Assembly (NCBI RefSeq): GCF_011039075.1
Contig: NZ_JAAKEG010000007.1
Span: forward strand, 62,001-126,000
DNA: 64,000 nt
Source of the DNA: Adlercreutzia sp. ZJ304
GTDB lineage: Bacteria; Actinomycetota; Coriobacteriia; Coriobacteriales; Eggerthellaceae
Direction of reading: 5' to 3'
The position numbers and the translations under genes were made by a program. This document shows, one piece after another, positions 29,175 through 46,136 of this stretch (within the stretch, counting starts at the first letter, position 1; the number at the start of each line of letters is the position of its first letter). The notes under the pieces were generated by a model, which made no database searches, was not told the origin of the DNA, and saw only the letters and a list, made by a program, of their open reading frames with translations.

Positions 29175-29328
29175 TACCGCGAACTCGTCCACGCACATGT
29201 TCGACCGAAAGGTCACAGGCATCACAGACGGCGGCACCCATGTAGTGAACGCAGAGGACATCCTCTACGTAGAATTGGCGGACAAGCGCACGTTTTTCTA
29301 CTACGCCAATTTGGCGCAGTGGCTCTGA
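29175..29328 (+). pseudogene. Possible LytTR DNA-binding domain remnant
   Basis: A plus-strand frame reads RKVTGITDGGTHVVNAEDIL then YVELADKRTFFYYAN before a stop at 29326. The Ile-Leu-Tyr-Val-Glu strand after a nucleic acid-contacting basic segment resembles the start of LytTR domains. It ends where a repeated 30-bp sequence and an IS3 element begin. The rest of the gap back to 28912 holds nothing recognisable. Confidence 0.3.
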
Positions 29329-29333
29329 GCTGG
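29304..29333. repeat. Dispersed 30-bp repeat, copy 1
   Basis: Begins CGCCAATTTGGCGCAGTGG. It matches 27 of 30 bases at 37692-37721. The first half is a palindrome (CGCCAATTTGGCG). It sits immediately before the IS3 element. Confidence 0.6.
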
Positions 29334-29337
29334 TGAT

Positions 29338-30605: not shown

Positions 30606-30616
30606 ATTAGAAGACC

Positions 30617-31219
30617 ATGGGCACCACTGCAACCGATGCTGGAAGCTCTGCTCACGAAGGTCAAGCTCGCGAAGAGCTCACCATCAATGACACCATCGAA
30701 TACACAGGACTTATCCCAGGTCATGAGTACACAGCAAAGGACACTCTCATGGATAAGGAAACCAGTGAGCCAGCACTCGACGATGATGGCAACGAGATTA
30801 CGTCTGAGACCACCTTCACAGCTGAAGAATCATGCGGAAGCGTTGAGGTCGTATTAACCTTCAAAGGTGCGAACATAGCAGGAAAATACTTGTCGCGTTC
30901 GAGTCAATGGAATACGAAGGTACTGAGTACATGGTCCATGCCGACATCGAAGATGAGGACCAGACTGTGAAGATCATCGATATCGCTACTCAGGCAAAGG
31001 ATGCCAAGACCGACTCTCAGGTAAGTACAATCGGCGAGGATGTGACCTTGATCGACACGGTTACCTTTACTGGTCTAACTCCGGGCAGTACCTACAAGCT
31101 CTACACCATGCTCATGAGCAAGGAGACTGGAAACTCGATCACCGGATCCGACGGTTTGCCAATCGTGGCGTAACGGAGTTCACGCCTGAAGAACCTGACG
31201 GAACCGTCGATGAAGATTA
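30617..31219 (+). pseudogene. VaFE-repeat surface protein fragment
   Basis: Two VaFE-type repeats are readable across frames: TTATDAGSSAHEGQ, TINDTIEYTGLIPGHEYT, then AKTDSQVSTIGEDVTLIDTV and TFTGLTPGSTYKLYTMLM. Shifts near 30885 and 31165 break the frame, and there is neither a signal peptide nor a sorting signal. It is part of a large LPXTG adhesin or pilin-like protein cut at its left side by the IS3 end. Confidence 0.75.
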
Positions 31220-31327
31220 GCTGACAGCTAATGAAGTCAATCTGAAAACTTGATACCTAAGAATCAAGGGGACCGGATGTGCGACCAGTTGGACTACCGG
31301 CTCCCGGTTTCGAATATACTTTTAACA

Positions 31328-31399
31328 TTAAGTTATAACGACATATCTTGCAATTTTCAAAATATCATGTTATATTCCTATTGTCGTTAAGTTATAACG
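31328..31399 (+). promoter_or_regulatory. Promoter bracketed by two 13-bp direct repeats
   Basis: TTGCAA (31348-31353) and TATATT (31371-31376) are 17 bases apart. The sequence TTAAGTTATAACG occurs exactly at 31328-31340 and 31387-31399, on either side of the promoter and 59 bases apart. Each contains the palindrome GTTATAAC. The arrangement suggests repression, perhaps with looping, by the HTH protein encoded next. Confidence 0.7.
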
Positions 31400-31415
31400 T
31401 CAATTAGGAGATAAC

Positions 31416-32258
31416 ATGAAGCTCGAAGATGTAAGTATGCAGGAATTGATCGATCAGCCTCTCTTTTGGGAAGACTTCGATTTGGATCGTAAAAACAAGG
31501 AAAGCGTAAAAGCATTCATTGAGCGCGACCCTAAGGCAGTAGAGAAAATTCGTTTCCTTGACCAAGTCGAGGATGGCAATCTTCTTGATAGAAATACCTT
31601 CTTCAAATTAGATTTTTACGAGGTTGAGTTCACCGAATACGCCCGTCTTTTCCTTGCTGAAGGAGAATACCCCTCGGATGACAGCAACAGCATCACTGAC
31701 GTGGACTATCCGAGGGACTACAGCAATATCAGATTGCTTATACAAGATGTTACAGGGCCTTATCCAACAGATGGACAAGGAATGTTCGCAATCTATCTAA
31801 AAGATTACTTGTTTGGATTCATAACCCCAGTTGGTATGTGTGTCTACCCCTACAACTTCGATGAAGACTCTTGGGAACAATATAAAAACGATCCAGCGAA
31901 CTTCATTAAAGAACATGTGCTGCTAGAATTAGAGACACAGTTTTGGGAAGATGACTTCGATCTCAAACAGGAGCTCTACGATTACTACCACAATCTGCCG
32001 GATGTGCATAACCCATTGCTTGAAAAGCAAACCGACTTAGACCGGCTCATCTCTGTAAAAGAAACCTCGGAAATTCTAGGAGTAAGCGTTCCTAGGGTAA
32101 TGAAGATGATTAAGGAGAAATCCATCGACGGCTACAGGTTTGGTGGGAAATTATTGGTTACCAAATCATCCATCGACAATCGTATCGAATACATCAAAGA
32201 GCACGGTAAGCCAAAACGCGGCAAGGCGCCCGAAGGTAAGCGTAAAAAGAAAAAGTAA
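31416..32258 (+). CDS. Protein with C-terminal excisionase-like helix-turn-helix and basic tail
   Basis: 280 residues, first of three genes. Residues 1-205 are acidic and of no family that I recognise (VEFTEYARLFLAEGEYPSDD, YPTDGQGMFAIYLKDYLFGF). Residues 208-255 form a MerR/excisionase-type HTH (LISVKETSEILGVSVPRVMK), and the end is strongly basic (KPKRGKAPEGKRKKKK). TAGGAG precedes the ATG. It probably binds the repeats at 31328 and 31387 to control the unit. It could be a sensor-regulator or an antitoxin-like partner of the HNH protein (inference). Confidence 0.8.
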   Translation: MKLEDVSMQELIDQPLFWEDFDLDRKNKESVKAFIERDPKAVEKIRFLDQVEDGNLLDRNTFFKLDFYEVEFTEYARLFLAEGEYPSDDSNSITDVDYPRDYSNIRLLIQDVTGPYPTDGQGMFAIYLKDYLFGFITPVGMCVYPYNFDEDSWEQYKNDPANFIKEHVLLELETQFWEDDFDLKQELYDYYHNLPDVHNPLLEKQTDLDRLISVKETSEILGVSVPRVMKMIKEKSIDGYRFGGKLLVTKSSIDNRIEYIKEHGKPKRGKAPEGKRKKKK

Positions 32259-32294
32259 CTATTACGGTATTTGTCAACTAACAAGGAGAAAGAA

Positions 32295-33293
32295 ATGCCT
32301 GTATTTAAGATGCCTGTCCCGGTAAAGATCATGGGAAGAAGCTCAAGTATCACAAATTCGTTCGTAAACGGAATTATCCCTTGCATTGAGCCAACTGAAA
32401 ATGAGATAGACGAAGCGCTTTCCGTTCTAGGAATGAATCGAGAAACTGCTTGTTGTGCTTATTGCGGTTCACCCCACACAGAATGGGATCACCTAAATCC
32501 AATTGTTGATGATAAACAACCAACTGGCTACATTAGCGAGATTCACAATCTTGTGCCTGCTTGCAGTAAATGCAACCAATCAAAAGGCAATAAAGATTGG
32601 AAAACATGGATCTATAGCGATGCACAACTATCTCCAAAATCTAAAGGAACACCCGATTTAGATGAAAGAGTTTCTCGCTTGAAAGAATACGAAGCCACAT
32701 TTGAGCCGCGAAAGTTCAATTTCGAGGAAATTACTGGAGTGGAGCTTTGGTCAAAGCATTGGGACAATTACGAACGAATTATTGATGCAATGCGATTAGC
32801 TCAATCAACATCAGACGAAATCAAAAAACTAATTATGGAAAATGTCGGGATCAGTGTGCAACGCAAACCAAAACAGCCGAACTATGTTCGAGCTGGCAAT
32901 ACAAACAATCAGAATGAATCTTTTCCCTCAAATACTGAGGACGAAGCATTACTTGAAGAGTCAGGAATTGCTAAAAGAGATAATGAAACACTGCAACACT
33001 ATGTTCAAAGATCGTTTTGCTTTCTCATGAAAAACAGTTATATCCCAGACCGAGAGCTCAGAGATTTGTCGGATAAGGAATATACCAATAGGGTCCTAGG
33101 CCTAAACGACAGGTTTTTGTCTCGCGAGAGATGGTTCGATAGCTCAGGTAATTCAAGAGCTTGGAAAGACCCATATCATGGCTACTATCTTTGCTCCGAA
33201 TGGAATAAAAGACGTTTTCATATTATTGAGCCGAAGTATCGACATTGGGTTGCGCAAATGATACGAACAGGAAAGATGACCAATCGTGCCTAA
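32295..33293 (+). CDS. HNH endonuclease-like protein
   Basis: 332 residues from the ATG at 32295, 6 bases after AAGGAG. An HNH motif with zinc knuckles: CAYCGSPHTEWDHLNP (near residues 60-75), HNLVPACSKCNQSKGNKDW (near 95-115). The C-terminal part (LQHYVQRSFCFLMKN, ELRDLSDKEYTNRVLGL, GYYLCSEWN) resembles the helical tail seen on several restriction-like proteins. No methyltransferase gene is adjacent, so classical restriction-modification is unlikely. Comes 36 bases after the HTH gene and overlaps the third gene by 8 bases. A phage-defence nuclease is a reasonable hypothesis. Confidence 0.85.
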   Translation: MPVFKMPVPVKIMGRSSSITNSFVNGIIPCIEPTENEIDEALSVLGMNRETACCAYCGSPHTEWDHLNPIVDDKQPTGYISEIHNLVPACSKCNQSKGNKDWKTWIYSDAQLSPKSKGTPDLDERVSRLKEYEATFEPRKFNFEEITGVELWSKHWDNYERIIDAMRLAQSTSDEIKKLIMENVGISVQRKPKQPNYVRAGNTNNQNESFPSNTEDEALLEESGIAKRDNETLQHYVQRSFCFLMKNSYIPDRELRDLSDKEYTNRVLGLNDRFLSRERWFDSSGNSRAWKDPYHGYYLCSEWNKRRFHIIEPKYRHWVAQMIRTGKMTNRA

Positions 33294-33636
33294 AGCTAGA
33301 AACAAGGTCATTGCCGGAGCTTACAAAGGAAAGATAGTAAGCAGCGCAGGGATGACGCCTTACATAATCCTAAAGCTGACGAAGACCTTGAACCTAGATA
33401 AAACCAATGTGAGCCATCTTGAGCTGATAGATGAATCATCTGACATCAGCGTTGCTAGCGCCGCCACACGCGGCTTTATCGGAGAAATGCTGCTCGGGCC
33501 AATCGAATTAGTTACAGCAGGAACAGCGAAGCGCGACGAGAGATATATTGTCGATGCTGTATTCAAAGATGGGCAGAGAAGCGTGTTGGAGATCGATGGC
33601 GATTTATACAGGTTGCTTGCAGTAACCAACTTATAA
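33286..33636 (+). CDS. Small conserved-type protein in the HNH operon
   Basis: 116 residues with a GTG start inside the end of the HNH gene, so it is translationally coupled. The sequence is beta-rich (KVIAGAYKGKIVSS, GFIGEMLLGPIELVTAGTAK, VDAVFKDGQRSVLEIDGD). It resembles small Gram-positive domains with a GxxxG-rich hydrophobic centre often found in membrane-associated or signalling proteins. I do not recognise a named family. The neighbours suggest a role with the HNH protein, such as an inhibitor or sensor. Confidence 0.7.
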   Translation: MPKARNKVIAGAYKGKIVSSAGMTPYIILKLTKTLNLDKTNVSHLELIDESSDISVASAATRGFIGEMLLGPIELVTAGTAKRDERYIVDAVFKDGQRSVLEIDGDLYRLLAVTNL

Positions 33637-33699
33637 GAGATGAAGCATCAAAGCTAATGGCAGTAATTGGGAGCCCGATGAACATTAACTCCCAATTTT

Positions 33700-34188
33700 T
33701 TAGCAGAAGAATATTTCTGCTTCCCAAGACTCTGGGTAGGCCTCGAAAACCGTCTTGATTGCGTCATTCATGACAACGCCAAGCATCTTGCACATATAGT
33801 ACAAGTCTGCACGCTCTTCGATACCATCAAGAGCCTGCTTTACACCGGCGAATAAGTACATCGCATCGCCTAAACCATCCTGCAAGGTCAAAACCTCTTC
33901 TTTATTCATTTCTCCTCTCATGGCAAATAGAATACGGGAGAAATAGCGACATCTACTCCCAGTGACCGCCATCTCCCAATGACCTTCCGCGGGATGGTTC
34001 ACGGTGTTATACCCAGTGATAACCTGTTGTACTTCACTGTGGTGTCCAGAGCCCTTACCTGCAAGCATATGCGCTTTGCTGTGCGCTGTAACATTACCAG
34101 TGATATCGGCACCGCAGACATTACAGATCGAAACCTCTTTGGTGGCGTAGATTGGAACGCTCTCCGTCCATGCAGCCTTGTCTTGCAC
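33700..34188 (-). pseudogene. Chimeric frame: surface-protein zinc-finger tail joined to an unknown end
   Basis: 162 codons from a GTG. Codons 1-75 (ICNVCGADITGN, HMLAGKGSGHHSE) match the C2H2-like end domains of Coriobacteria surface proteins, which should finish with a CxxC knuckle but here break at GSRCRYFS. Codons 90-162 (MNKEEVLTLQDGLGDAMYLF) are a different, possibly real, small protein of unknown function starting at about 33921. It lies in the same frame as the relaxase remnant upstream, separated by one TAG. Confidence 0.4.
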
Positions 34189-34212
34189 CCATACTTTTTC
34201 GGTTTCCTCTAC

Positions 34213-34568
34213 CTATTTCTTAGATTGAGATTGCGAATCGGACGAATTGGTTGTTGAGGTCTTAGTTTGGGTGGATTCGGATTGTACAGAAGAAGCTGGG
34301 CTCTCGAAATAAACGGCCTGACGGCTGCGCACAGCATCACATGCGGATGATCTCTCACCGCGTTCCGGCATCTTGTTAGACAATCCCTTTAGGTGACGCT
34401 CCCTAGCCATGTCTTGTAAATCCCGGTTCAGATCTTCAGGATGGTCGGTATGCATTCGGTAGCCGGTCGTTAGGTTCACATTATTCACGACGATATGCGC
34501 ATGAGGGACCTTCTGGTCATTGTCGTCGTGGTAAATGATTGCTATTTCATGCTCTCCGAAGTGTTTTT
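34213..34568 (-). pseudogene. MobA/MobL-type relaxase fragment
   Basis: The minus strand reads KHFGEHEIAIIYHDDNDQKV, PHAHIVVNNVNLTTGYRM, then TDHPEDLNRDLQDMARERH, the metal-binding HxH segment of conjugative or mobilisation relaxases. It is open only from a TAA at about 34568 to the TAG at 34213-34215. The nicking Tyr region and the C-terminal half are lost. Shows that a mobilisable or integrative element once lay here. Confidence 0.75.
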
Positions 34569-34601
34569 ACACCCAAGCGCGAGACAGCTCGCGAAGAGAT
34601 C

Positions 34602-34690
34602 TGACCTGTATCGTTTTTTCGAACACAAGATTGCGAGATTTTGATTATGGATGCTAGTAATCTTATAGACTCGAAAAACGATACAGGTCA
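34602..34690. repeat. IS3 5' fragment inside a 20-bp inverted repeat
   Basis: TGACCTGTATCG... (34602-34622) and ...CGATACAGGTCA (34671-34690) are complementary over 20 bases, with one extra T in the left arm. Between them, 34629-34678 repeats 49 of 50 bases of the start of the IS3 element at 29338-29387, including its orfA ATG. It looks like a rearranged IS end. Confidence 0.7.
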
Positions 34691-34940
34691 ACCCGGGTTT
34701 CGCGGGCATGGCGCGGATGCGGGCGAAGGTTGTATACACGCTCAGACATTCGAGACAAGAGAGGCAGCTACGCTGGAGGTCTTCGAATACATCGAGTGCT
34801 TCTACAACCGAATCAGGATTCACTCGACCCTAGATTGGCTGAGCCCTGAGGATTTCGAGAAGAAATACTTTGACGAAATCCGTTCAGAAGCGGCGTAATA
34901 CATGTCAACAAAAATGGGGTTAATTCAGATTCAGTTGCAC
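34691..34940 (+). mobile_element. Second IS3-family remnant (orfB C-terminus)
   Basis: Codons for ATLEVFEYIECFYNRIRIHS, TLDWLSPEDFEKKY and a final RSEAA stop at 34896 are the last part of an IS3-family integrase of a different subgroup from the element at 29338. The CFYNRIRIHS block with its Arg/His is the classic C-terminal motif. The sequence after the stop (TGTCAACAAAAATGGGG) probably holds the IS right end. Confidence 0.7.
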
Positions 34941-34964: not shown

Positions 34965-36179
34965 CTAGATCGCCCAAACGGGAACTGCCTCAACATTCGG
35001 AGTGAGCAGATAGGGCTCTTGCGCTTGGCAGACAATGTGTCCGAACCCTATCTCGTAATCTGCCATGCCCTCGAGACAGGAAAAGTTCTTGGCTGCGTCC
35101 TTCTTTACCAGCGCGCCCATCTTGATCTCTACGGGGTGAAGCACGCGACCGTCCTGGATGACCAGATCGATCTCCCTCTTCTTGGCATCGCGGTAGAACC
35201 AGACGTCGCGCATGTTCGCGCCTGCATTCATATGGCTTTTCAGAACTTCCGACACAACGAAGGTCTCGAAGACGTGACCGGCCACAGCGCCGTTGCGCAG
35301 CTGGTCAGGGGTGGTCCAGCGGGTGAGATGGCAAACAAGACCGGTGTCTATGAAGAATATCTTCGGGGTCTTGGTCAGCCATTTGTCGACATTGGGAAAG
35401 AAGGGCTCTATGACGCAAACGATTCCAGAAGCTTGGAGAACGGAGAGCCATGCTTTGGCGGTCTTGTGGTCGATGTCGAGAGCGTTCGCTATATCCGACG
35501 CGTTGAACAGCTGGGCGGTGCGCGCCGCGCATGCCGCCATGAAGCTGTAGAACTTAGTCTCGTCCTTGACGTTGATTAGCTCGCGGACGTCTCTTTCGAG
35601 GTATGACCTCACGTAGTCGGTCCAGAAGCCGTCCCACTCGATCGAGGGGTCCTGCAGTTCGGGCATCGATCCTCTGTGAATGTGAGTCCAGAGGTCGAAG
35701 GCGTCGGGCGCGTCGATATCGCCCGTGCAAACCTTCTTAGGGAGGTACCTGTGTGGCGCATCGACGCAGCCGACCAGCTCGCGCAGAGAGAGGGCGGGCA
35801 TCTCGAGGATTCTGATACGGCCCGCAAGCGACTCGCTTACGCCGTTCATAAGCTGGTAGGTCTGCGAGCCCGTGAGAACGATAAGCCCCTTCTGATCGGA
35901 TCGGTCCACGATCAATTTGACCGAGAGAAACAGTCCGGGCACGCGCTGGACCTCGTCGATGATGAGGGGCATGGATCGCATGTCGAAGAACAATGCGGCA
36001 TCTTCCTCCGCTTGCATGCGAAGGAAGGGGTCGTCCATGGTCACATAGTCGAACCTGTCGCCCAGATGCTCTTTAAGCACGGTGGTTTTTCCGACCTGTC
36101 TTGCTCCTGTGACCAGTACGACCTTTCCCTGGGTGAGCATGCGGTCGATGGTTTTCTCGATCTCTCTGGCTATGTACAT
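34965..36179 (-). CDS. AAA-family ATPase with DUF4143
   Basis: 404 residues. Walker A GARQVGKTT near residue 26, Walker B MPLIIDEVQRVPG near 75, sensor LTGSQTYQLMNGVSE near 105, and DUF4143 with YLERDVRELINVKD and EIDLVIQDG. GAAAGGGGTC precedes the ATG. It is more intact and from a different subgroup than the paralogue at 14366 (residues outside the motifs differ greatly). It lies just outside the proposed guaA island. Function not established for the family. Confidence 0.9.
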   Translation of the reverse strand: MYIAREIEKTIDRMLTQGKVVLVTGARQVGKTTVLKEHLGDRFDYVTMDDPFLRMQAEEDAALFFDMRSMPLIIDEVQRVPGLFLSVKLIVDRSDQKGLIVLTGSQTYQLMNGVSESLAGRIRILEMPALSLRELVGCVDAPHRYLPKKVCTGDIDAPDAFDLWTHIHRGSMPELQDPSIEWDGFWTDYVRSYLERDVRELINVKDETKFYSFMAACAARTAQLFNASDIANALDIDHKTAKAWLSVLQASGIVCVIEPFFPNVDKWLTKTPKIFFIDTGLVCHLTRWTTPDQLRNGAVAGHVFETFVVSEVLKSHMNAGANMRDVWFYRDAKKREIDLVIQDGRVLHPVEIKMGALVKKDAAKNFSCLEGMADYEIGFGHIVCQAQEPYLLTPNVEAVPVWAI

Positions 36180-36232
36180 GGAAATGACCCCTTTCTATAG
36201 GGGCCATTATCGCAGGTACTTAGTCGATGGTC

Positions 36233-36259
36233 AAATTTGGGAATTCCATTCCCAAATTT
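36233..36259. repeat. 12-bp inverted repeat next to the island end
   Basis: AAATTTGGGAAT (36233-36244) and ATTCCCAAATTT (36248-36259) form a perfect stem with a 3-base loop, 2 bases before the guaA-like core at 36262. The GGGAAT/ATTCCC part resembles the core itself, so it may be a recombinase core-binding site. Confidence 0.6.
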
Positions 36260-36261
36260 CA

Positions 36262-36275
36262 CCTATTCCCACTCT
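36262..36275. other. Attachment-site core, distal copy
   Basis: CCTATTCCCACTCT is identical to the end of guaA (44453-44466). It lies 2 bases from the inverted repeat at 36233-36259 and about 100 bases from the first TGAGTTCA-type repeat. Interpreted as the outer att site. Confidence 0.6.
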
Positions 36276-36370
36276 TGCGTTGGTGAGCCGAAATTGTGTG
36301 CTATGTGAGTTCTTTCACGCTCTCTCGTGCTCCGCATTCCGACCAGTGTTCCTCCGTTGTAGCATCGTTT

Positions 36371-36621
36371 TGAACTCAGTCAAAATCCCTTTTCACACGT
36401 CGTTTCCGGGGAATAATTCTTGAAACTATATTACTAGGCTCTGATCTGGTATTTCTTTATTCCCAGCCATAAGTTGAGTTCACATCTTTGATCCTTCAGG
36501 GCAACCATTGCAGAAAAATACTCCCCGGGACTAATCAGGGGATAATTTCGTATATGGGAATAATTTCTCTACCTGCGCAAACGCAAATTGTTGAGTTCAA
36601 AGTGAGTTCAGATTGAGTTCA
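36371..36621. repeat. Cluster of TGAGTTCA repeats (possible recombinase arm sites) in a 464-bp gene-free region
   Basis: TGAGTTCA occurs at 36475-36482, 36592-36599, 36603-36610 and 36614-36621, and inverted as TGAACTCA at 36371-36378. GGGAATAAT-like motifs (around 36411 and 36556) are mixed in. Five copies of an 8-mer in 250 bases is far above chance. The region 36180-36643 has no gene; an attachment region with arm-type sites explains it best. Confidence 0.55.
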
Positions 36622-36643
36622 CGTATTTAGCGGGCGGAAAAGA

Positions 36644-37666
36644 TCAAAACTCCAGCAGCATGAGCCACTCGGTTTCGTCAGCCCCATCGCCGGCAATGTG
36701 AAATCCCAAGCGCTCATAAAGATGCAACGCAGGATTCTGTTTCTGGACTCCCAGCGAACAACGCTTGTCTCCAAGGCCCTCAAGCTTGTTCATGGTCGCC
36801 CGCATGAGACGTGTTCCTATTCCGAGTCCCCTGAGATCGTCATCGACCGAGATGGAGAAGACCGGGGTGCTTTCATCGGCTCTTCCATAGACATCCGTCG
36901 TCCGTGTCCAGCAAGCTCCAACAACTCTGCCATCCAGAACAGCGACAAAGGCCACATCGCCTTCTTCTTCACCGAACCCCTCTACGGCAGCCACCAGTTT
37001 TGGATCCTCTTGCAAGATGCTTCGCGGCACCTCCCCCTCATAGCCTGCGGGAATGAAGATCGCATTGTAGAGATATTCGCTCAGAAGAGGGTATTCGCCC
37101 GGCGTCATCAGACGAATCTCAATGCCGCTTGTTATCTCCCACCGCTCCTTCGAGAGATAGCTGACCCTCAATGTCCTGCTCTCATCGAGCAGCTTGCATG
37201 TGACATCGCGATCCGTTCGCACGTACTTGAAACCGAGCTTTTCCTGAACGCGTTGCGATTTGTCATTTCCTTCGAAGTTACCGCACCAAATCCCCGACAA
37301 TCCAAGGTCCTTGAAACCGTGGCGGATGAGCTCACGGGAGGCTTCCGGAATGAAACTTTGACCCCAATAGGGCTTTCCTATCCAATAACCCAGTTCAGCC
37401 TCACTCTCTGCGAGAGGGATGTTGCCCTCCTCGTCGCGGAAGAGCCCGACACACCCTATTGGCTTGCCTGTTTCCTTGAGCGCCACGGCATAGGTCTCAG
37501 GCGCGGACAGCACATCACGGATTATCTCACGGCTGTTATCCACGCTCGTATGCGAAGGCCAACCGGCAATTGGTCCGATCTCAGGATCTTTCGCGTAGCG
37601 GTACAGCTCTTCTGCATCATCTTCGACCCATGGGCGAAGGATGAGTCTGTCAGTTTCAAGACGCAT
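36644..37666 (-). CDS. Double GNAT-domain acetyltransferase
   Basis: 340 residues from the ATG at 37666, 8 bases after GGAGG; the frame remains open to 37930. Residues 1-170 are a RimJ-like GNAT ([40 protein letters not shown]). Residues 180-340 are a second GNAT with acetyl-CoA loop [14 protein letters not shown] and [12 protein letters not shown]. Each half has the expected length, so it is a true tandem fusion. Both substrates are unknown; protein N-terminal or aminoglycoside-like substrates are possible. First gene inside the island end. Confidence 0.85.
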
Positions 37667-37691
37667 GTTTGCAGCCTCCATGTTTCCACTG

Positions 37692-37721
37692 CGCCAAATT
37701 GGGGCAGTGGCTCTGAACTGG
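37692..37721. repeat. Dispersed 30-bp repeat, copy 2
   Basis: Begins CGCCAAATTGGGGCAGTGG and matches 27 of 30 bases at 29304-29333. Together with the preceding CCACTG it forms an imperfect 25-bp palindrome (37686-37710). It lies upstream of the double-GNAT gene. Confidence 0.6.
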
Positions 37722-37770
37722 CATTTCTCTAAAAAATTGACGAAATGTAGACTAGAGTATACAATTCTAT

Positions 37771-38066
37771 CATGATTGGAGTAGTTCAGACAGATGAATT
37801 CGTAAGATGGCTCAAGCGTCTCAAAGATGCCGCTGCCCGCGCGCATCCTCGTGAGGATCCAGCGCCTATCACTGACGGCGAGCTTCGGAGATACGAAGCC
37901 GGTCGGTGATGGGGTGTTCGAGATGCGCATCGACTACGGTCTAGGTTATCGTCTCTACTATGCGCTGAGAGGAAATGGGTTGATTTTGCTTCTCATTGGC
38001 GGGGATAAGTCTTCACAGCAGAGAGACATTGCTAAAGCGAAGAAACTGAATCAGGAATACGAATGA
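37771..38066 (+). pseudogene. RelE/HigB-type toxin broken by a one-base deletion
   Basis: The first frame gives [20 protein letters not shown] and stops at 37907. From about 37833 the other frame continues the family correctly: [41 protein letters not shown] and LILLLIGGDKSSQQRDIAKA, ending at the antitoxin start. The offset matches loss of one base in a GC-rich run near 37825-37835. Intact, it would be a roughly 98-residue HigB-like mRNA interferase. As it stands, no complete toxin can be made unless ribosomes shift frame. Confidence 0.75.
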
Positions 38067-38362
38067 TGGGGACGAAGATGAAGAAAGCAACGAAATGGGA
38101 TGCGTCCGAGTACCTTGAGACCGAGGCCGATATCGCGGCGTACCTCAACGCAGCTCTTGAAGATTGCGACACTTCCGTAATAGCTTCCGCCCTTGGCGAC
38201 ATCGCTCGCGCGAAGGGAATGACGCAGCTTGCGAAGGAAACCGGCATCACCCGTGATGGTCTCTACAAAGCACTTTCGCCTACAGGAAACCCGTCATTCG
38301 ATACCGTGCAGAAGGTTGTAAGGGCTTTTGGACTGAAGCTTGATGTTGCCATTACTGTTTAA
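38063..38362 (+). CDS. HigA-like antitoxin
   Basis: 99 residues, overlapping the toxin stop (ATGATG), so coupled. The second half is an HTH_3-type domain: IARAKGMTQLAKETGITRDG then LYKALSPTGNPSFDTVQKVV. The pattern with NAALEDCDTSVIASALGDIA upstream is the common addiction-module antitoxin of the HigA type that follows HigB-like toxins. It is intact although its toxin is frameshifted. Confidence 0.87.
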   Translation: MMGTKMKKATKWDASEYLETEADIAAYLNAALEDCDTSVIASALGDIARAKGMTQLAKETGITRDGLYKALSPTGNPSFDTVQKVVRAFGLKLDVAITV

Positions 38363-38415
38363 TTATTTAATACAGCGAGATTGAGTACAGCATAAAAAAA
38401 AGATAAGGATGAATC

Positions 38416-39345
38416 TTGGGTAGAAGAACTTTAGCGGGGCATAAAATAACTTTTTCAAAATACCGCGACCCCTATAACCCCGCTTCTCCAGCAGATTTAG
38501 ATGGCTTGAATGCCGCCGATGTTTTTGAGTCTTGGGTACGCGAAAAGAGCTTAGAGGGAATACAAGAGGTAAGCAGCCAGAGCTACCTTCGTATTGATCA
38601 TGTAATTAGATACAACGACCATATTGTCGTTGTTGACACAATGGCAGGAAAGTCCGGCGAATCTGGCGAGGTAGTTAACATCGAGAATAACGAAGTCCTT
38701 TTCAGGCTTGGTGAGATGGATGTGCCCGCATCACCCGCAAGAGCAATTTTTATGTGTCCTCCGCGTGGTCAGATGGCTCTTTGGTTTTCAGAGTATAGCG
38801 CGAGAAGCAGTGGTGCGAGTATGCTCTTGTCGCAATTCGATAGAGAATGGAAGGCTAGCGAAAAAGGCTTTACGCTAACAAAGAAAAGGCTCGTTGCTTC
38901 AGAAATCGCTCTGGATGATGCAACCGTAACTGGCGTTGAAGTCAGATTAATTAAACGTGCAGATGATCGAGCAGATGGCGTTAATGAAATTGTAGGGACG
39001 GAGATTCATAAGTTTAAGCCAGCTAAAAAGCACCGTTTCCTTGGGACTATTATTGATAAGTTTAGAAATACCCCCTCATCGGCTTATGAATTGGTCGGCC
39101 TAAGCGGGTCGTCATATGATGAGGCAGAAATATTTGTATCTGTAGATGTTGGAGGGCATAAAAGGCGCGTTCAAATATTCAATCCAGAAGACGGTGTTTA
39201 TTTCAGAGAAGAGCTAAATGATAGTGCCCATCCTGTTTTATCGTATGATGAGTTTGTACGGTATTGTTGTGAAAACGCTGGGGTATTCATGGAGCGAAGC
39301 GGCTTCGAATGGCTTCCAGATTGGTCAATTGGAGGCGTTGACTAA
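38416..39345 (+). CDS. Unrecognised soluble protein paired with a 4-TM protein
   Basis: 309 residues from a TTG with AAGGA 5 bases ahead (the ATG at 38408 runs into a stop). No membrane segment or signal peptide. The first 160 residues are beta-rich (YLRIDHVIRYNDHIVVVDTM, VNIENNEVLFRLGEMDVPAS) and contain FMCPPRGQMALWFSEYSARS; the second part holds a charged segment followed by a Ser/Gly-rich DEAEIFVSVDVGGHKRRVQ. I do not recognise the family. The stop codon touches the start of a 4-TM gene, so the two act together. Candidate two-component defence unit inside the island (inference). Confidence 0.75.
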   Translation: MGRRTLAGHKITFSKYRDPYNPASPADLDGLNAADVFESWVREKSLEGIQEVSSQSYLRIDHVIRYNDHIVVVDTMAGKSGESGEVVNIENNEVLFRLGEMDVPASPARAIFMCPPRGQMALWFSEYSARSSGASMLLSQFDREWKASEKGFTLTKKRLVASEIALDDATVTGVEVRLIKRADDRADGVNEIVGTEIHKFKPAKKHRFLGTIIDKFRNTPSSAYELVGLSGSSYDEAEIFVSVDVGGHKRRVQIFNPEDGVYFREELNDSAHPVLSYDEFVRYCCENAGVFMERSGFEWLPDWSIGGVD

Positions 39346-39879
39346 ATGGGAATGTCTTCGCCAAATCGCATCCCAAAAGAATACTTTTCAACACTCGTTT
39401 CTCAAAGAACGGGAAAATACAAAGCTGCCACAATAGCTTTCCAGATTATTCTTCCTTTGGTTGTTGGCGGGATAGCATTTATCTTCAAAGTTCAAATTAG
39501 TTCAGTCGACAGTACGATTGGCGGAGTTGCCGTTGTCGCAGCGCTGCTATGCGCGGTCGCAACAATGCTGTTTCAAATTCGCATAGACTTGAGGATTAAA
39601 GTAAAGAACAACTCTGATGCCTTTGTGACTGAAAACGATCTAAAGTTGGTAGATGAGTTATTTGCTGCTTTGCTTTGGGGAATCATGTTTGGCTTCATAA
39701 TCACAGCTATCGCAATGATTATCCAATGGACTGGAGTTCTTGATTCGGGCAACATCTTAATTATTACTCTATGTACCTCCATACTTATCGTCTGCATAGT
39801 GCATTTTGCCTTTGTAATTGGTTTAATCCTTAAACGACTCTCTGCTGTTTATCAAATTGTAGCGATGCAAAAAAGATGA
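39346..39879 (+). CDS. 4-TM membrane protein paired with the soluble gene
   Basis: 177 residues; its ATG directly follows the TAA of the upstream gene. Hydrophobic segments near residues 26-46 (IAFQIILPLVVGGIAFIFKV), 55-75, 108-132 (LLWGIMFGFIITAIAMIIQW) and 137-160. A 30-residue hydrophilic loop between TM2 and TM3 carries KVKNNSDAFVTENDLKLVDE. Small multi-TM proteins next to a cytosolic partner are common effectors in antiviral systems that permeabilise the membrane. No named family recognised. Confidence 0.77.
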   Translation: MGMSSPNRIPKEYFSTLVSQRTGKYKAATIAFQIILPLVVGGIAFIFKVQISSVDSTIGGVAVVAALLCAVATMLFQIRIDLRIKVKNNSDAFVTENDLKLVDELFAALLWGIMFGFIITAIAMIIQWTGVLDSGNILIITLCTSILIVCIVHFAFVIGLILKRLSAVYQIVAMQKR

Positions 39880-39902
39880 CAAAATAATCTAAAGTTACAG
39901 CC

Positions 39903-39940
39903 ATCCTTTCTATGTTGTGTTCCTTCATCATAGAAAGGAT
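39903..39940. promoter_or_regulatory. 12-bp hairpin covering the recombinase ribosome site
   Basis: ATCCTTTCTATG (39903-39914) and CATAGAAAGGAT (39929-39940) are exact complements with a 14-base loop. The right arm contains the AGAAAGGA ribosome site of the recombinase gene starting at 39946, so the folded mRNA would hide it. Confidence 0.6.
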
Positions 39941-39945
39941 TTGTC

Positions 39946-40790
39946 ATGTCAGCTTACAAAGACGAGAAATGAGGAACGTGGTTCGCGAACTTCAGGTACA
40001 AGGACTGGAGAGGCGAACCCAAACAGAAATCGAAGCGAGGCTTTCGCATCAAGCGAGATGCAGAGCTTTAGGAGCGTGACCTTCAAGAAGAGGATGTCGA
40101 GAGCAGCATCCATGGAGTTCTCGCTCGCATGCGATGTCTATCTTGCCGATAACGCTACGCGCGTCCGGGATACAACCTTGGAGCAGAAACGCTACTACAT
40201 CGACAAGATCTTGAAGCCTTACTTCGACGGAATGCTCATAGGCGAGATCGATGCGAAGACGGTTATCGACTGGAAGAACCACCTACTGGAGAGCCGTACG
40301 CGCCACGGAAAACCCTACACCGCTACATACCTCAACACCCTCTGCAGCCAGTTGTCGGCAATCACGAACCACCTAGTGCGCTTATACGGCCTTGAGAAGA
40401 ACCCGGTGCAGATCGCAGGCAAGATCGGCTCCAAGGAGAAGCGCGACTATGACCAAGCATCTGCTTCATCACGAGATGACTCGAGGCTCAAAGGCGGCAG
40501 ACCTCAAACGCATCCGCATCCATGATTTGCGCCATAGCCATGCGACCATGCTGGTGGAGATGGGAATGTCGGTACCCTCTATCGCGGCTAGGCTCGGACA
40601 CTCAGGCGAGACCGCAACCCATCGCTACCTGCATCTGCTGCTAGGATCGGAAGCCGCTATTGCTGGAAAGTTCGATGCCGACCTCATCTGGATAACGCGA
40701 ACCGCATCCGATGAATATGCGGCGATGGCTGGAACCGAGTTATCCAAGGACGCCAATGAGGCGATGGGGGACATGGAGAGATGCTGCTGA
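39946..40790 (+). pseudogene. Phage-type tyrosine recombinase, degenerate
   Basis: Reading from ATG 39946: SAYKDEK, stop (TGA), GTWFANFRYKDWRGEP, a second stop (TAG at 40071), then a shift into the core-binding domain (TTLEQKRYYIDKILKPYFDG, YLNTLCSQLSAITNHLVRLY). After another shift near 40450 it continues with IRIHDLRHSHATMLVEMG, PSIAARLGHSGETATHRYLH, the catalytic HxxR...H/W...Y region. The middle of the catalytic domain with the first Arg is missing. At least two nonsense changes, two shifts and a deletion make it inactive. Probably the original integrase of this island. Confidence 0.85.
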
Positions 40791-41320
40791 CATATGCGAA
40801 TTGCGGAGATTTCTCCACATGCTTTCACACTCAGTTCATGCAGTTCATAGAGTGTTCTGGATTTCTTGACCTGGGAATTCTCGTCTGCAAGACTTGGAAA
40901 AGCGTGCGAAGATTGGTCGCGTCAACGGTTGATAAGGCAGAAGAATCAATCAGGTGGTTTTGACATCAAAACGACATCACGCCTCCGAACAGGGAAAAGG
41001 AAGGCAAATCAAACAAATTCAAGACGCAAAGAGAGCAAAATCAGCATCGAAATCCCGCATCCGGAAAATACCCTTTAGTAATTTCCGGATGCGAGAACCC
41101 CAGCTCAGAGGCAACGCGCAAGCATCCGTGATGTCAGCGGGAATCCAGTGATGTCGCCATGATGTCAAAGCCGCACTCAGAAAGGAGCATTTCCAATATT
41201 AAGCATTACCCTGAATTGGTTTATTGATCTTCGCATGCAGGTATTTGCGGTAACATTTGTCACACTAGTCGAGCCTTACGCATTAATCGCTACTTAGTTT
41301 TGTCTTGGAGGATAGGTAAA
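40791..41320. other. 530-bp gene-free region with hairpin and GACATCA repeats
   Basis: GACATCA occurs at 40962-40968 and 40973-40979 and inverted as TGATGTC at 41129-41135, 41149-41155 and 41160-41166. Between them, CGCATCCGGAAA (41056-41067) and TTTCCGGATGCG (41082-41093) form a perfect 12-bp stem. No gene is convincing. The set may be recombinase arm sites, or operator sites for the next gene. Confidence 0.5.
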
Positions 41321-42058
41321 GTGAACTCATCTTCTGGCTACTTTGAGAGAATTGACAGGCTTTGGCACTGGACACAAAACACTAGTCAAATGCCCATACA
41401 CTGCAGCCCGCCGGCAATTGACTGCGACACAGTGCGTTCCATCAGGGAGAATCTTCGCATTCTGAGCTCTGAACTGGCACCGGAATACCCCTTTTACTCT
41501 GGTGAAGTGTCAAGACTGGAGTCCATCTTGTTCCTCAATTGCATGGGGGGTAGACACCCCTTGAATATCACTGCTTTTGGCGAGCTGTTCCTGATCGTCA
41601 AGCACATAAAGAAAGAGCCTTACAATCTGTCGATTTGGGCCGAGATGCACCCTCGCATCCGCTCTATAGCTTCTTCTTTGTATAAAGACGGGCATTTTGG
41701 CGCTGCTGCAGAAAAGGCGATCAAAGAGGTTGAGCAAAGGCTTCGAGATATCTTTAGAGAGGCAAAACCGACATCCAAAGAGCCAAAGGAAGCAGCAGAT
41801 ATTGTCGGAGCGCTGCTGTCTGAGCGCGGTGCATACCGTGTCGCAGACGACACCACCCCTTCCGGAAAAAGCTACTGCAGAGGCATAAAGCTTCTTTTTG
41901 ATGGATTCCTTGCCTCTTATAGGAATCCATCATGCCATGGAAACAGGGAGTTTTCGAAACGCGAAGCTGTTGAGCAAATTGTTCTAGCCAGCCAACTCAT
42001 GTATGCACTCGAAGGCGGCTCAGTAGTACCTAATAGCGAAAGCCCAGCCGAACGATAA
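41321..42058 (+). CDS. TIGR02391-like protein
   Basis: 245 residues from a GTG at 41321, 9 bases after GGAGG. The C-terminal half follows the TIGR02391 (Ymh-type) pattern: MHPRIRSIASSLYKDGHFG, AAAEKAIKEVEQRLRDIF, VGALLSERGAY and LFDGFLASYRNPSCHG. This domain is often found in prophage and defence loci and is probably all-helical; its biochemical role is not settled. The N-terminal part (FERIDRLWHWTQNTSQMP) is not recognised. Faces the AbiE pair convergently inside the island. Confidence 0.75.
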   Translation: MNSSSGYFERIDRLWHWTQNTSQMPIHCSPPAIDCDTVRSIRENLRILSSELAPEYPFYSGEVSRLESILFLNCMGGRHPLNITAFGELFLIVKHIKKEPYNLSIWAEMHPRIRSIASSLYKDGHFGAAAEKAIKEVEQRLRDIFREAKPTSKEPKEAADIVGALLSERGAYRVADDTTPSGKSYCRGIKLLFDGFLASYRNPSCHGNREFSKREAVEQIVLASQLMYALEGGSVVPNSESPAER

Positions 42059-42153
42059 CGTTCGGCTTCAACTTACGAGGGGAAACCGCGAACGAATCTC
42101 CTGGGGAATTTGCCTCAGCGAGCTTGGCTCAGCGCTTCTTGCCCGCTCTGGCC

Positions 42154-42996
42154 CTAAGAGTTCAAGGCTTCATTGCAAAGGCTGCGGATGGCATCGAGCG
42201 CATCTTCCCACGAGAGCCCCGCCGCGAAGTCGTTCCTGTTCCGGTATCTTTCCCAATGTCCGGCCATGTCCTCGCTTGCCGCCAGGGCATCGACGACGGA
42301 CTCGGAGTCCGCGAGTGTGACGTCATGGCCCCTCGTCTTCGCGGTTGCCGCGACAGCTTCCGCCAAGATGGCGTAATCAATGTCGGCTTCCATATTGGTC
42401 AGCGCCCACATGTCGTAGAAGTCCCTCATGCGCGTGTTGAGCGTGGAGCGTACGAACATGGTCTCGATCTTCTCCGCAAGCACGGTTTCAACATTGTAGG
42501 CGAGGATGTCGATATCGCGATCCTTAAGCATGAGGCGATACGTGTAGTTGATGGCGGATGGTGTGAGCGCATCCCCTGTGGAGATGTCGAGCTTCATCGG
42601 GATATCCATCTTGCCGAGATGGGCGCGAATCTTGATCCGGACACCACCGTATTCCGATTCCTCCATGATCTCGTAGGCGTCTTCAATATCGAAAGTCATG
42701 CCATCTTCTAAAGGGATAACTGCAATATCTTTCGCCATCTTTACGGCACTCTCGACGTCAAGCGTCATGTTCAGCATAGTCACATCGGTATCGCGCGTCA
42801 TCCGTTGTCCAAGGTCGAGCATCGAAGTAACGAGCATGCCGCCCTTGAGAACGAGGTTGTTCTTGTACTCAGATTCGACCATGCGCTCAAGGTAACGCTC
42901 CATTGCATAGCGACGTTGCAAAAGCTGAGCCTTACCGCTATCGCCATTAGAGAGGCTCTTGATGAGGTCTTTCACCTTTGTCGGATTGTCGATCAC
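42154..42996 (-). CDS. abiEii: AbiEii nucleotidyltransferase toxin
   Basis: 280 residues from a GTG at 42996 that overlaps the AbiEi stop by 4 bases; an ATG at 43020 would add 8 residues. Polymerase-beta-like nucleotidyltransferase motifs: LVLKGGMLVTSMLDLGQ with the Gly-Gly turn and TRDTDV with the paired Asp, then a later DISTGDALTPS acid. AbiEii is a GTP-binding toxin that blocks growth after phage infection in type IV-like toxin-antitoxin systems. The second gene of the abiE operon. Confidence 0.9.
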   Translation of the reverse strand: MIDNPTKVKDLIKSLSNGDSGKAQLLQRRYAMERYLERMVESEYKNNLVLKGGMLVTSMLDLGQRMTRDTDVTMLNMTLDVESAVKMAKDIAVIPLEDGMTFDIEDAYEIMEESEYGGVRIKIRAHLGKMDIPMKLDISTGDALTPSAINYTYRLMLKDRDIDILAYNVETVLAEKIETMFVRSTLNTRMRDFYDMWALTNMEADIDYAILAEAVAATAKTRGHDVTLADSESVVDALAASEDMAGHWERYRNRNDFAAGLSWEDALDAIRSLCNEALNS

Positions 42997-43595
42997 AGAA
43001 GCACCCCCATTGCGTCCCAAATACGCGATTCCATGTTCATTGTCCGCGCGTACTCCGACAAGCGCGCGAGGTTCTTATCTTTGGAGGCAGCGTAAGTCTT
43101 CAGCGCATAATTGAATTCGGTTATGTCAATGCTGTCCTTCTTGCGGATCAAGTCACAGATGGTGCGCTCCTTGTCATAAGCTTTGACGAGGTTCCCGTAC
43201 GGCGTCTTCGCGTCACAGACCCCTAATCCATACCACTCAGGCTTCACGTAATGGATATGCACCCCTTGGTCTCTTAGAGAGGGAGAATTGTAACCAGAAC
43301 CGACGCTGACGGATAGCGGAATAGGTTCGCGCTCGCTCATTTCATGTAGGAACAGCGCAGTGTCGTGCGAGAAGATGGCCTTCGGAAATCGAGTTTGCAG
43401 CAACGCGAACTCATCGGGAAGGGCATTGTCGGATAAGTAGAGTCCACGCCCATGCTTTTCGAGCCCTTTTTCCTTCACGTAGCGATAGAAGGCATCCTTC
43501 GGGATTCCTGCCGCAGACGCTTCAGAGAAGGTAAGCCGCCCCTCATTGCTATCGAGAATCTCGTTTAGCCTATGTGAGTAATAATCGAATATCAT
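42993..43595 (-). CDS. abiEi: AbiEi antitoxin/autorepressor
   Basis: 200 residues from the ATG at 43595; the frame opens at 43613. N-terminal winged helix (LTFSEASAAGIPKDAFYRYV) and the AbiEi-type C-terminal antitoxin domain (LPDEFALLQTRFPKAIFSHD, VVGNLVKAYDKERTICDLIR-like). AbiEi proteins neutralise AbiEii and bind inverted repeats to shut off their own promoter. Such a repeat covers the start of this gene. No ribosome site is visible before the ATG, so translation may be leaderless or use a very short leader. Confidence 0.87.
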   Translation of the reverse strand: MIFDYYSHRLNEILDSNEGRLTFSEASAAGIPKDAFYRYVKEKGLEKHGRGLYLSDNALPDEFALLQTRFPKAIFSHDTALFLHEMSEREPIPLSVSVGSGYNSPSLRDQGVHIHYVKPEWYGLGVCDAKTPYGNLVKAYDKERTICDLIRKKDSIDITEFNYALKTYAASKDKNLARLSEYARTMNMESRIWDAMGVLL

Positions 43596-43628
43596 ACTGA
43601 TAGTATAGTACATACTCAGTATGATATT
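43588..43628 (-). promoter_or_regulatory. AbiE operator: 13-bp perfect inverted repeat over the abiEi start
   Basis: AATATCATACTGA (43588-43600) and TCAGTATGATATT (43616-43628) are exact complements 15 bases apart. The abiEi ATG lies in the left arm. TATACT between the arms, read leftward, can serve as -10. It matches the known AbiEi mode of negative autoregulation. Confidence 0.75.
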
Positions 43629-43823
43629 CCGTCAGAAATGCTAGTTCCAACTGGTTAGCAAAAATCGCGTCAGAAAAGATCAAGCTGGTAATCCTCATCC
43701 ATGATTCAACATCAGTGGATGTAGACACATTTTTAAACACTCGAGTCCAAAGGAAAACTTTTACCACTGTACGCAAGAAAAATGCTGCTAGCACAAATGT
43801 GCTCGCTAAAAAACACCTGCCCT

Positions 43824-44447
43824 CTAATTACCTGTATTCTTTTTCACAGCATCGTCGTAATCATTAACAAAGAGCTTCAACAAGTCGCCTTGCTTTAATT
43901 TGTGTTTTTCGCCCATATCTTTACGCAATTGCATAAGGACCTTTTCCATACCATGAAGAACCGCATAAGGATCGCTTAATTGTTTACTGCTTATGAGACG
44001 CCACTCATCCCATTTTTGTATGGCCTTGGAAGAACCCCACAACGTTAAGCCTTGGTTAAACTCCATCATGTCCTTCAGAATCGCATCCTGAGTGTACTCA
44101 TTCCCGCTTTTTGTTGATTCGAGCATTTTGTAGAAAATTTCAACTAACTGCGTATAGGGCTTTTCGCGATGTTCCCTTAGGTATTCTTGCTGCTTATGTT
44201 TATTTGATAGCACGTTGTTAATAATTGCGCCACAAACAACAGTAAAAATGGAAACAGCCCCGGTTATCAATGCAACAACAATCGCCGCATCCAATGTTGA
44301 CAAGCTATCGAAAAAGGATACTAGCCCACCACTTACATTGTTAATCAAAAAAGAAAGACCAAAAACAATGATCGCGACAACAAAAGCTAAAGTAATAAGT
44401 CCTTTAAGAATAGCCCAAAACGATTGATTGCTGCTGTTGCTTTCCAT
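43824..44447 (-). CDS. Two-TM protein with cytoplasmic helical domain
   Basis: 207 residues. Two membrane helices at about residues 14-36 (LKGLITLAFVVAIIVFGLSF) and 52-78 (DAAIVVALITGAVSIFTVVC), then 125 mostly helical, charged residues (NKHKQQEYLREHREKPYTQL to LLKLFVNDYDDAVKKN). No named domain recognised. It ends the island and starts 6 bases after the guaA stop on the same strand, so it may be read from the guaA promoter, which would give constant expression. A membrane-bound defence or immunity protein is possible. Confidence 0.72.
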   Translation of the reverse strand: MESNSSNQSFWAILKGLITLAFVVAIIVFGLSFLINNVSGGLVSFFDSLSTLDAAIVVALITGAVSIFTVVCGAIINNVLSNKHKQQEYLREHREKPYTQLVEIFYKMLESTKSGNEYTQDAILKDMMEFNQGLTLWGSSKAIQKWDEWRLISSKQLSDPYAVLHGMEKVLMQLRKDMGEKHKLKQGDLLKLFVNDYDDAVKKNTGN

Positions 44448-44452
44448 GCGCG

Positions 44453-44466
44453 CCTATTCCCACTCT
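44453..44466. other. Attachment-site core, guaA copy
   Basis: CCTATTCCCACTCT covers the end of guaA and its TAG stop and is identical to 36262-36275. Integration here restores the guaA 3' end. Confidence 0.6.
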
Positions 44467-46136
44467 ATCGTCGCGGGCGGCTTGCTGGTTATGTCGTACA
44501 CCACGCGGTTAACGCCGGGCACTTCAGCCACAATGCGCGAGCTTACACGCGCCAACACATCATAAGGCAACTTAGCCCAGTCAGCAGTCATCGCATCAGA
44601 GCTCTCCACCGCACGCAGAATAATCGGGCGCGCATATGTGCGCTCATCCCCCATAACACCCACGCTCTTAATATCCGGCAACACGGCGAAATACTGCCAC
44701 ACTGAGCGCTCTACTTCAGGACCCCCAGCCACATCGCGCACGTGTTCACCATTGCGCACACCACTCTCAACAAACAAACGCTCGTTGTACGCATCCAACT
44801 CTTCACGCACAATTGCATCCGCATTCTTCAAAATCTCCAATTTCTCAGGCGTTACATCGCCAATAATACGAATAGCCAAACCGGGTCCCGGGAACGGCTG
44901 CCTGTGAACAATATAATCGGGCAAACCCAGCGCCGTGCCCAGCGCACGCACCTCATCTTTAAAGAAATGATCCAACGGCTCAATCAAATCAAAATGTACG
45001 CCCTCAGGAAACGGAATCAAATTATGATGACTCTTAATGGTCGATGCCTTGCCGCCAGTCTTGCGCGCACCGCTCTCAATAATGTCGGGATAAATCGTAC
45101 CCTGCGCCAAAAACTTCACGCCATCCAATTCCTCAGCAACCGCAAAAAATTCTTTCCAGAACTGAGTGCCAATAATACGGCGCTTCTCCTCTGGCTCAAC
45201 AACACCTGCCAGCAGCTGCGCATAGCGCTCTTCGGCATGCACGTGCACAAAATCCACGTCAAACTGCTTCGTAAAAACCTCTTCAACCTCTTCGGGTTCA
45301 TTCTTGCGAAGCAGACCATGATTCACAAACACACAAACCAGCTGCTTTCCAATAGCGCGCGCACATAGCGCCGCCACAACACTTGAGTCCACGCCACCCG
45401 AAAGACCCAAAATCACACGATTATCGCCCACAGTCTGGCGAATAACCGCCACTGAATCCTCAATAATAGAATCCATAGTCCAGTCCGGCACAAGCCCGCA
45501 AATATCAAATAAGAAATTTGCCAACATTTTCTGACCATGCGGCGTATGGCGCACCTCGGGATGGAATTGCGTTGCATACAGCCGTCGCTCGGCACACTCC
45601 ATAGATGCCACCGGACACACATCAGTTTGCGAAGTTACAACAAACCCTTCAGGTACGCGGCTAACCGCATCGCGGTGGCTCATCCATACCGTCTGCTGCG
45701 CAGGCGTATCCCCAAACAACGCCGATGCCGCCCCACCCGCGCCGTCCACATCATCACCCGCACCGCCAGCGCCGCCCCCATCGCAGCGCGTCAAAGACGC
45801 AGGTCCATACTCGCCCTTTTCGGTATGACCAACTTCGCCACCTAAAGCCACCGCCATAGCCTGCTGCCCATAACAAAAACCCAGCACGGGAATACCCAGC
45901 TCTAAAATTCCCGGATCAATCGCAGGAGCATCTTCCGCATACACACTAGCCGGTCCGCCCGACAATATTATTGCTGCAGGTGCTGCCTCAGTCACCTCAG
46001 CCGCAGTTATGTCGCACGGCACAATCTCGGAGTATACATGCAAATCACGCACGCGCCGAGCAATCAACTGCCCGTACTGTGCGCCAAAATCTACGACTAT
46101 TACCTTTTGTTGCGAAGTTGCGGAATTTGCAGCCAC
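44454..46136 (-). CDS. guaA: GMP synthase (glutamine-hydrolysing)
   Basis: 560 residues; converts XMP to GMP using glutamine and ATP. Residues 10-205 are the class I glutamine amidotransferase (GFCYGQQAMA with the catalytic Cys, TQFHPEVRH with His and Glu). The ATP pyrophosphatase has GLSGGVDSSVVAALCA and the C-terminus is the dimerisation domain ending in TIEWE. About 35 residues longer than the usual form, mainly because of a Gly/Ala/Asp-rich insert (SLTRCDGGGAGGAGDDVDGA) in the amidotransferase domain. GTG start with GAAAGGGTG ahead. The 3' end is the target of the proposed island. Confidence 0.97.
   Translation of the reverse strand: MAANSATSQQKVIVVDFGAQYGQLIARRVRDLHVYSEIVPCDITAAEVTEAAPAAIILSGGPASVYAEDAPAIDPGILELGIPVLGFCYGQQAMAVALGGEVGHTEKGEYGPASLTRCDGGGAGGAGDDVDGAGGAASALFGDTPAQQTVWMSHRDAVSRVPEGFVVTSQTDVCPVASMECAERRLYATQFHPEVRHTPHGQKMLANFLFDICGLVPDWTMDSIIEDSVAVIRQTVGDNRVILGLSGGVDSSVVAALCARAIGKQLVCVFVNHGLLRKNEPEEVEEVFTKQFDVDFVHVHAEERYAQLLAGVVEPEEKRRIIGTQFWKEFFAVAEELDGVKFLAQGTIYPDIIESGARKTGGKASTIKSHHNLIPFPEGVHFDLIEPLDHFFKDEVRALGTALGLPDYIVHRQPFPGPGLAIRIIGDVTPEKLEILKNADAIVREELDAYNERLFVESGVRNGEHVRDVAGGPEVERSVWQYFAVLPDIKSVGVMGDERTYARPIILRAVESSDAMTADWAKLPYDVLARVSSRIVAEVPGVNRVVYDITSKPPATIEWE

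Follow-up and report, generated by a model that had tools for sequence, protein, structure and literature searches.

A decayed, probably composite genomic island at the 3' end of guaA in Adlercreutzia sp. ZJ304

The window analysed here is a stretch of 64,000 nucleotides from Adlercreutzia sp. ZJ304 (NCBI RefSeq assembly GCF_011039075.1, contig NZ_JAAKEG010000007.1, positions 62,001 to 126,000 of the forward strand), to which all coordinates refer. The host gene, guaA (GMP synthase), lies at 44454-46136 on the minus strand and is represented in 113 of 140 family genomes by homologues that for the most part share 75-89% identity. The 14-mer CCTATTCCCACTCT covers its last codons and stop at 44453-44466 (plus strand) and recurs exactly at 36262-36275 (plus strand). 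This repeat had been pointed out in an earlier reading of the letters without database searches (the sequence-only reading), which held that a 14-mer common throughout the genome without linked recombinases would speak against an island. In the whole genome (33 contigs, 1,998,085 bases) it was found at these two places only, with up to one mismatch allowed, and a reversed control gave no match over the same 1,998,085 bases. The copy at 44453-44466 is the guaA-proximal att core and holds the reverse complement of GAGTGGGA, the attB described for GIsul2 at the guaA 3' end (PMC9376610); the reverse complement of TCCCACTC likewise lies within the 14-mer. The copy at 36262-36275 is the distal att core; with one copy on either side, the region between them has the guaA 3' end as a flanking direct repeat, the arrangement of a site-specific genomic island of this gene end.

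The distal core is adjoined on the left by a DUF4143/AAA_14 ATPase gene (34965-36179, minus strand; Pfam 4.9e-44), which also matches the PADLOC candidate PDC-S01 (7.5e-101). Between gene and core lies an inverted repeat, described earlier as 12 bp long and beside the distal copy of the 14-mer. It was confirmed and proved longer, with 16-nt arms (36229-36244 and 36248-36263) that are 94% complementary; an assignment to an att or recombination site was rejected, because DUF4143 homologues without a core beside them carry the palindrome upstream as well. Since it precedes these homologues with and without an adjoining core, the palindrome (36229-36263, no strand assigned) is placed with the DUF4143 gene, outside the island, as its probable operator. 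Farther left, 29300-34900 holds mobile-element debris: IS3-type transposase pieces, a piece of a T-Q ester-bond adhesin and an HNH protein. It also includes a relaxase remnant (34213-34616), for which relatives have matching DNA 6-30 kb downstream of guaA. A structured RNA was considered for this side and discarded; there was no Rfam match, and the stretch shared with other genomes (34397-34596) is the relaxase remnant. GC skew changes at about 44000, from near zero on the left to -0.2 to -0.29 from guaA on for several kb.

Inside the distal core, the 8-mer TGAGTTCA is clustered: the window has nine copies against 1.8 expected, and five of them fall within 36371-36621, as the sequence-only reading had noticed. 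Arm-type site 1 (36371-36378) is on the minus strand and reads TGAACTCA on the plus strand; site 2 (36475-36482), site 3 (36592-36599), site 4 (36603-36610) and site 5 (36614-36621) are all on the plus strand. Of 140 family genomes, nine contained the array when it was searched for as a gapped pattern (spacings of about 104, 107-118 and 11 bp); the reversed control gave none. Site 1 is 106-107 bp from the core in all nine elements (107 bp in the window), site 2 is 103-105 bp and site 3 212-222 bp from site 1 in all nine, site 4 follows site 3 by 11 bp in seven, and site 5 follows it by 22 bp and is exact in five. Conservation of sites 1-3 is partly built in, because they formed the search pattern; the distance to the core and the additional 11-bp sites are free of this. 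Each of the nine genomes had a guaA-end core, mismatched at no more than one position, at a distance of 106 or 107 bp from site 1, and this conserved core-to-arm geometry is the strongest single result of the analysis. Repeated sites at a fixed distance from a core are the layout of a lambda-type attachment region with arm binding.

The first gene beyond the array encodes a double-GNAT acetyltransferase (36644-37666, minus strand; Pfam Acetyltransf_3 and Acetyltransf_1), which the sequence-only reading had overlooked along with the frameshift in the toxin of the module that follows. That module consists of a HigB/Gp49-like toxin gene (37772-38066, plus strand; its 3' part matches Gp49 in Pfam), split over two frames in the window and a single open frame in genome G119 of the same family, and a HigA-like antitoxin gene (38063-38362, plus strand; dnstrm_HI1420, 1.4e-31). 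Copies of the antitoxin that are 87-92% identical occur in six relatives, in two of them beside arm sites. Two plus-strand genes come next, for a 309-aa soluble protein (38416-39345) and a 177-aa four-helix membrane protein (39346-39879; from an AlphaFold model, hydrophobic stretches and alignments). The tyrosine integrase of the island is present as a pseudogene only (39946-40790, plus strand), with in-frame TGA and TAG codons and a frameshift; about 330 nt are deleted, corresponding to residues about 175-280 of the G119 homologue and taking in the region of the first catalytic arginine. A conserved segment downstream of it (40791-41186, plus strand) was delimited by alignment to G036 and G119.

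The remaining block begins with a Hypoth_Ymh protein gene (41300-42058, plus strand; Pfam 9.2e-18), a HEPN-like candidate that also matches Aga_HEPN, an Argonaute-associated model (7.2e-07). AbiEii, the nucleotidyltransferase toxin (42154-43020, minus strand; Pfam 1.2e-36, PADLOC 7.3e-91), and its antitoxin AbiEi (42993-43613, minus strand; PADLOC 2.9e-63) are encoded by adjoining genes, the arrangement of an AbiE type IV toxin-antitoxin system. Beside guaA lies an orphan gene for a 207-aa membrane protein (43824-44447, minus strand), with no family above cut-off. The recombinase pseudogene, the toxin-antitoxin module (37772-38362) and AbiE (42154-43613) had all been named from the letters, along with three unrecognised genes, and were located as described. 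The pair at 38416-39879 and the gene at 43824-44447 are without a family match; 41300-42058 is recognisable as Hypoth_Ymh, which the sequence-only reading had not noticed. Pfam searches found no relaxase or conjugation gene in 36262-44453, the only relaxase remnant lying outside, so that the region does not qualify as an ICE. No near-identical island DNA was found in plasmids or phages.

The end of guaA is a recurrent target in the relatives. Over 518 kb downstream of guaA (the relatives' loci and the window), 14 further copies of the guaA end were counted, every one of them on guaA's strand and none on the other, and two or three copies stand in series at several loci (G029, G160). Homologues of the element integrase were found in 41 of 140 family genomes, with 37 of 64 matches no more than 15 kb downstream of guaA.

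The closest counterpart is an element of G119 (Eggerthellaceae), which runs from a distal core through arm sites, HigBA and one large orphan gene to an intact integrase, with the array spaced as in the window. The part from 36262 to about 41.2 kb (alignment to 41186), here called element A, matches it in distal core, arm geometry, HigBA and integrase and differs in cargo. The G119 integrase is open over 349 aa and has an Arm-DNA-bind_4 domain, to which N-terminal pieces of the window pseudogene correspond. In place of the 309- and 177-aa pair, G119 has an orphan 1113-aa protein (L092:3283-6624), the sole large cargo of that element, which is without Pfam, PADLOC or NCBIfam match. The int-downstream segment lies immediately before the guaA-side att in G036 and G119 (in the latter on a separate contig, adjoining a guaA-type core; contigs C108 and C36), and presumably once formed the end of element A towards guaA; in the window it is separated from guaA by 3.2 kb of other cargo.

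Insertion was to be judged, according to the sequence-only reading, by a relative in which guaA adjoins the DNA left of 36262 with nothing in between. When 399 genomes of the order were searched for the palindrome beside a guaA-end core, such a junction came to light in an uncultured Collinsella contig, CASFIQ010000142.1, where guaA ending in TIEWE* is followed by the palindrome and then by the start of a DUF4143 protein resembling that of the window. This uninterrupted site comes from another family, in a metagenome assembly whose contig ends inside DUF4143. Of the two same-genus genomes, G001 has another guaA-proximal junction and the contig of G002 ends soon after guaA; neither displays the guaA-palindrome-DUF4143 order, so the empty site does not come from the same species. 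The same 8.2 kb was found in no relative and is thus not syntenic, a finding opposite to the universal synteny that had been proposed as grounds for dismissing an insertion.

Together these observations favour, with a probability of about 0.87, the reading of 36262-44453 as a decayed and probably composite guaA-end island, left by site-specific integration on two or more occasions, with stranded defence cargo. A tyrosine integrase would recombine a core of about 11-14 bp, matching the last guaA codons, with the identical chromosomal stretch; as it joins the core to the same guaA sequence, the gene end would stay intact and a displaced copy of the core would be left at the other end of the insert. 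The arm domain of the integrase is predicted to bind the TGAGTTCA array, which lies 107 bp inside that displaced copy. Element A would have brought the HigBA addiction module, the acetyltransferase and the soluble and membrane gene pair, the Ymh/AbiE/membrane block (41.3-44.45 kb) would have come to lie between it and guaA with loss of the intervening att, and later decay of integrase and toxin would have left an immobile defence cassette. The earlier view of a stranded defence island with both att sites visible thus holds for the integration at the guaA end, the two cores, the arm-type sites beside the distal one, the dead integrase and the defence cargo, but probably not for its being one island.

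An explanation of the 14-bp match by chance, or by a partial guaA duplication that left it behind, with the 8-mers as unrelated repeats, could appeal to an identity of just 14 bp. It is contradicted by the uniqueness of the 14-mer pair in the genome, by the core-to-arm distance fixed at 106-107 bp in nine genomes and by the restriction of guaA-end copies downstream of guaA to guaA's strand; because the core-arm geometry is conserved, this explanation is already refuted, and we regard it as extremely improbable. The composite reading has a more serious competitor in a single 8.2 kb element with both its original ends, whose guaA-side cargo always included the Ymh/AbiE/membrane block. No att core is found at about 41.2 kb, so that this block has none on its left and the whole region is flanked by just two cores, and AbiE is cargo of other arm-bearing elements as well; with no core there, the case for a composite rests on synteny. 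The segment that ends at 41186 in the window nevertheless runs straight to the guaA-side att in G036 and G119, and tandem units separated by cores are common in relatives, which makes the single element doubtful. The 8.2 kb is probably a composite of element A and a second acquisition (41.3-44.45 kb) whose inner att has been lost, the latter being read as a separate acquisition because it has a core on the guaA side only.

A further proposal refines this composite reading and is compatible with it: the DUF4143 gene may be the end of an older guaA-integrated element, in which case the distal core would mark where tandem elements meet, rather than the original edge of the chromosome. G093 (a Curtanaerobium respiraculi contig, Eggerthellaceae) and G138 have a DUF4143-palindrome-core junction that, like the one at 36262, is not at guaA itself. 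Such junctions occur in two families; DUF4143 homologues are spread over many loci, PDC-S01 is itself a defence candidate, and the relaxase remnant farther left matches ICE-like DNA downstream of guaA in relatives. Against it, DUF4143 is followed by ordinary chromosomal genes in G138, and no third core was found at the left edge; on balance we hold the proposal to be somewhat more likely than not.

Comparable systems are known elsewhere. GIsul2 and related guaA islands of Proteobacteria, which have a tyrosine integrase, share with the window the attB core GAGTGGGA at the guaA 3' end and more than one att copy, which gives separable units (PMC9376610). They differ in host phylum and cargo, and in the window a pseudogene is all that is left of the integrase, and the att between the units has probably been lost; mobilisation of GIsul2 was tested in that publication. 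Streptococcal ICEs are also inserted site-specifically at the guaA 3' end, with direct repeats that hold just the exact gene end; unlike them, 36262-44453 is without a conjugation module, and its relaxase remnant is outside (PMC4701971). The island itself is a further example of this known kind. Its array supplies a sequence-level rule for recognition of guaA by an Eggerthellaceae island family (core, 106-107 bp, arm array; kept in nine genomes), by which new elements can be found and delimited in a pattern search, and the guaA 3' end stands out as a place of accumulation for defence genes in these gut bacteria.

Greater novelty lies in the gene pair at 38416-39879. Neither protein matches a Pfam, NCBIfam or PADLOC model, so that the pair matched no known anti-phage system in these collections; standard defence annotation passes it over. 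The 309-aa protein has ten homologues (20-29% identity) in the 399 genomes of the order, each with the membrane gene directly after it, and the soluble and membrane pairing was kept in 14 of 14 loci. Residues G81, R109, E126 and C284 are invariant. The pair was also found on Microbacterium and Glutamicibacter plasmids, and Dulem virus 32 carries it about 2 kb from the phage integrase gene; in 297 genomes drawn across the phylum it was present in its own genome only. Its neighbours include type I restriction, a C5 methyltransferase, an RT_UG17-SLATT unit, an AbiLi/AriA-like ATPase, a CBASS cyclase with AbiU, and PDC-S48 exonucleases. AlphaFold gave four long helices for the 177-aa protein (pLDDT 88) and a model of moderate confidence only for the 309-aa protein; fold searches with both returned no convincing PDB match, and a family profile of the 309-aa protein gave chance-like matches only against PDB sequences. 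With chances slightly above even, we propose that the pair is an undescribed two-gene anti-phage system, with a soluble sensor and a four-helix membrane effector, spread by guaA islands, by plasmids and by a temperate phage in which it stays close to the integrase gene. The putative defence role is suggested through guilt by association, the pair lying in many cases next to defence genes.

Arm sites are also found in other settings. Two arm-bearing units of 6.2 kb (L056, genome G163) and 7.1 kb (L055, genome G029) lie between two guaA cores; both have AbiE, G163 also has AbiD and OLD-like genes, and SEC-C/DUF5677 genes are among the cargo of the two units. No integrase was detected in either unit, so that mobilisation in trans is possible. 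Such units presumably resemble cis-mobilizable, integrase-less elements flanked by att sites, from which the window differs in keeping an integrase remnant. In the single-contig genome G064 an arm array with core (G064:C1:709456) stands 1.7 Mb away from guaA.

Other recombinase genes and repeats were seen at guaA as well. In G064, G023, G090, G099 and G010, two tyrosine recombinase genes with the direction of guaA follow one another on its downstream side, at about 1.4 and 2.9 kb, and are perhaps a two-recombinase element. At L108-L113, L118 and L119, in several families, a sequence about 80 bp long and nearly identical from site to site (GTTTTGTTGTGTTTCGGGGTGGAGT...TCCCGAATTTTATTCCCACTC) adjoins guaA or a 48%-identical guaA paralogue; it also occurs at two sites away from guaA and is read as the end of another class of element.
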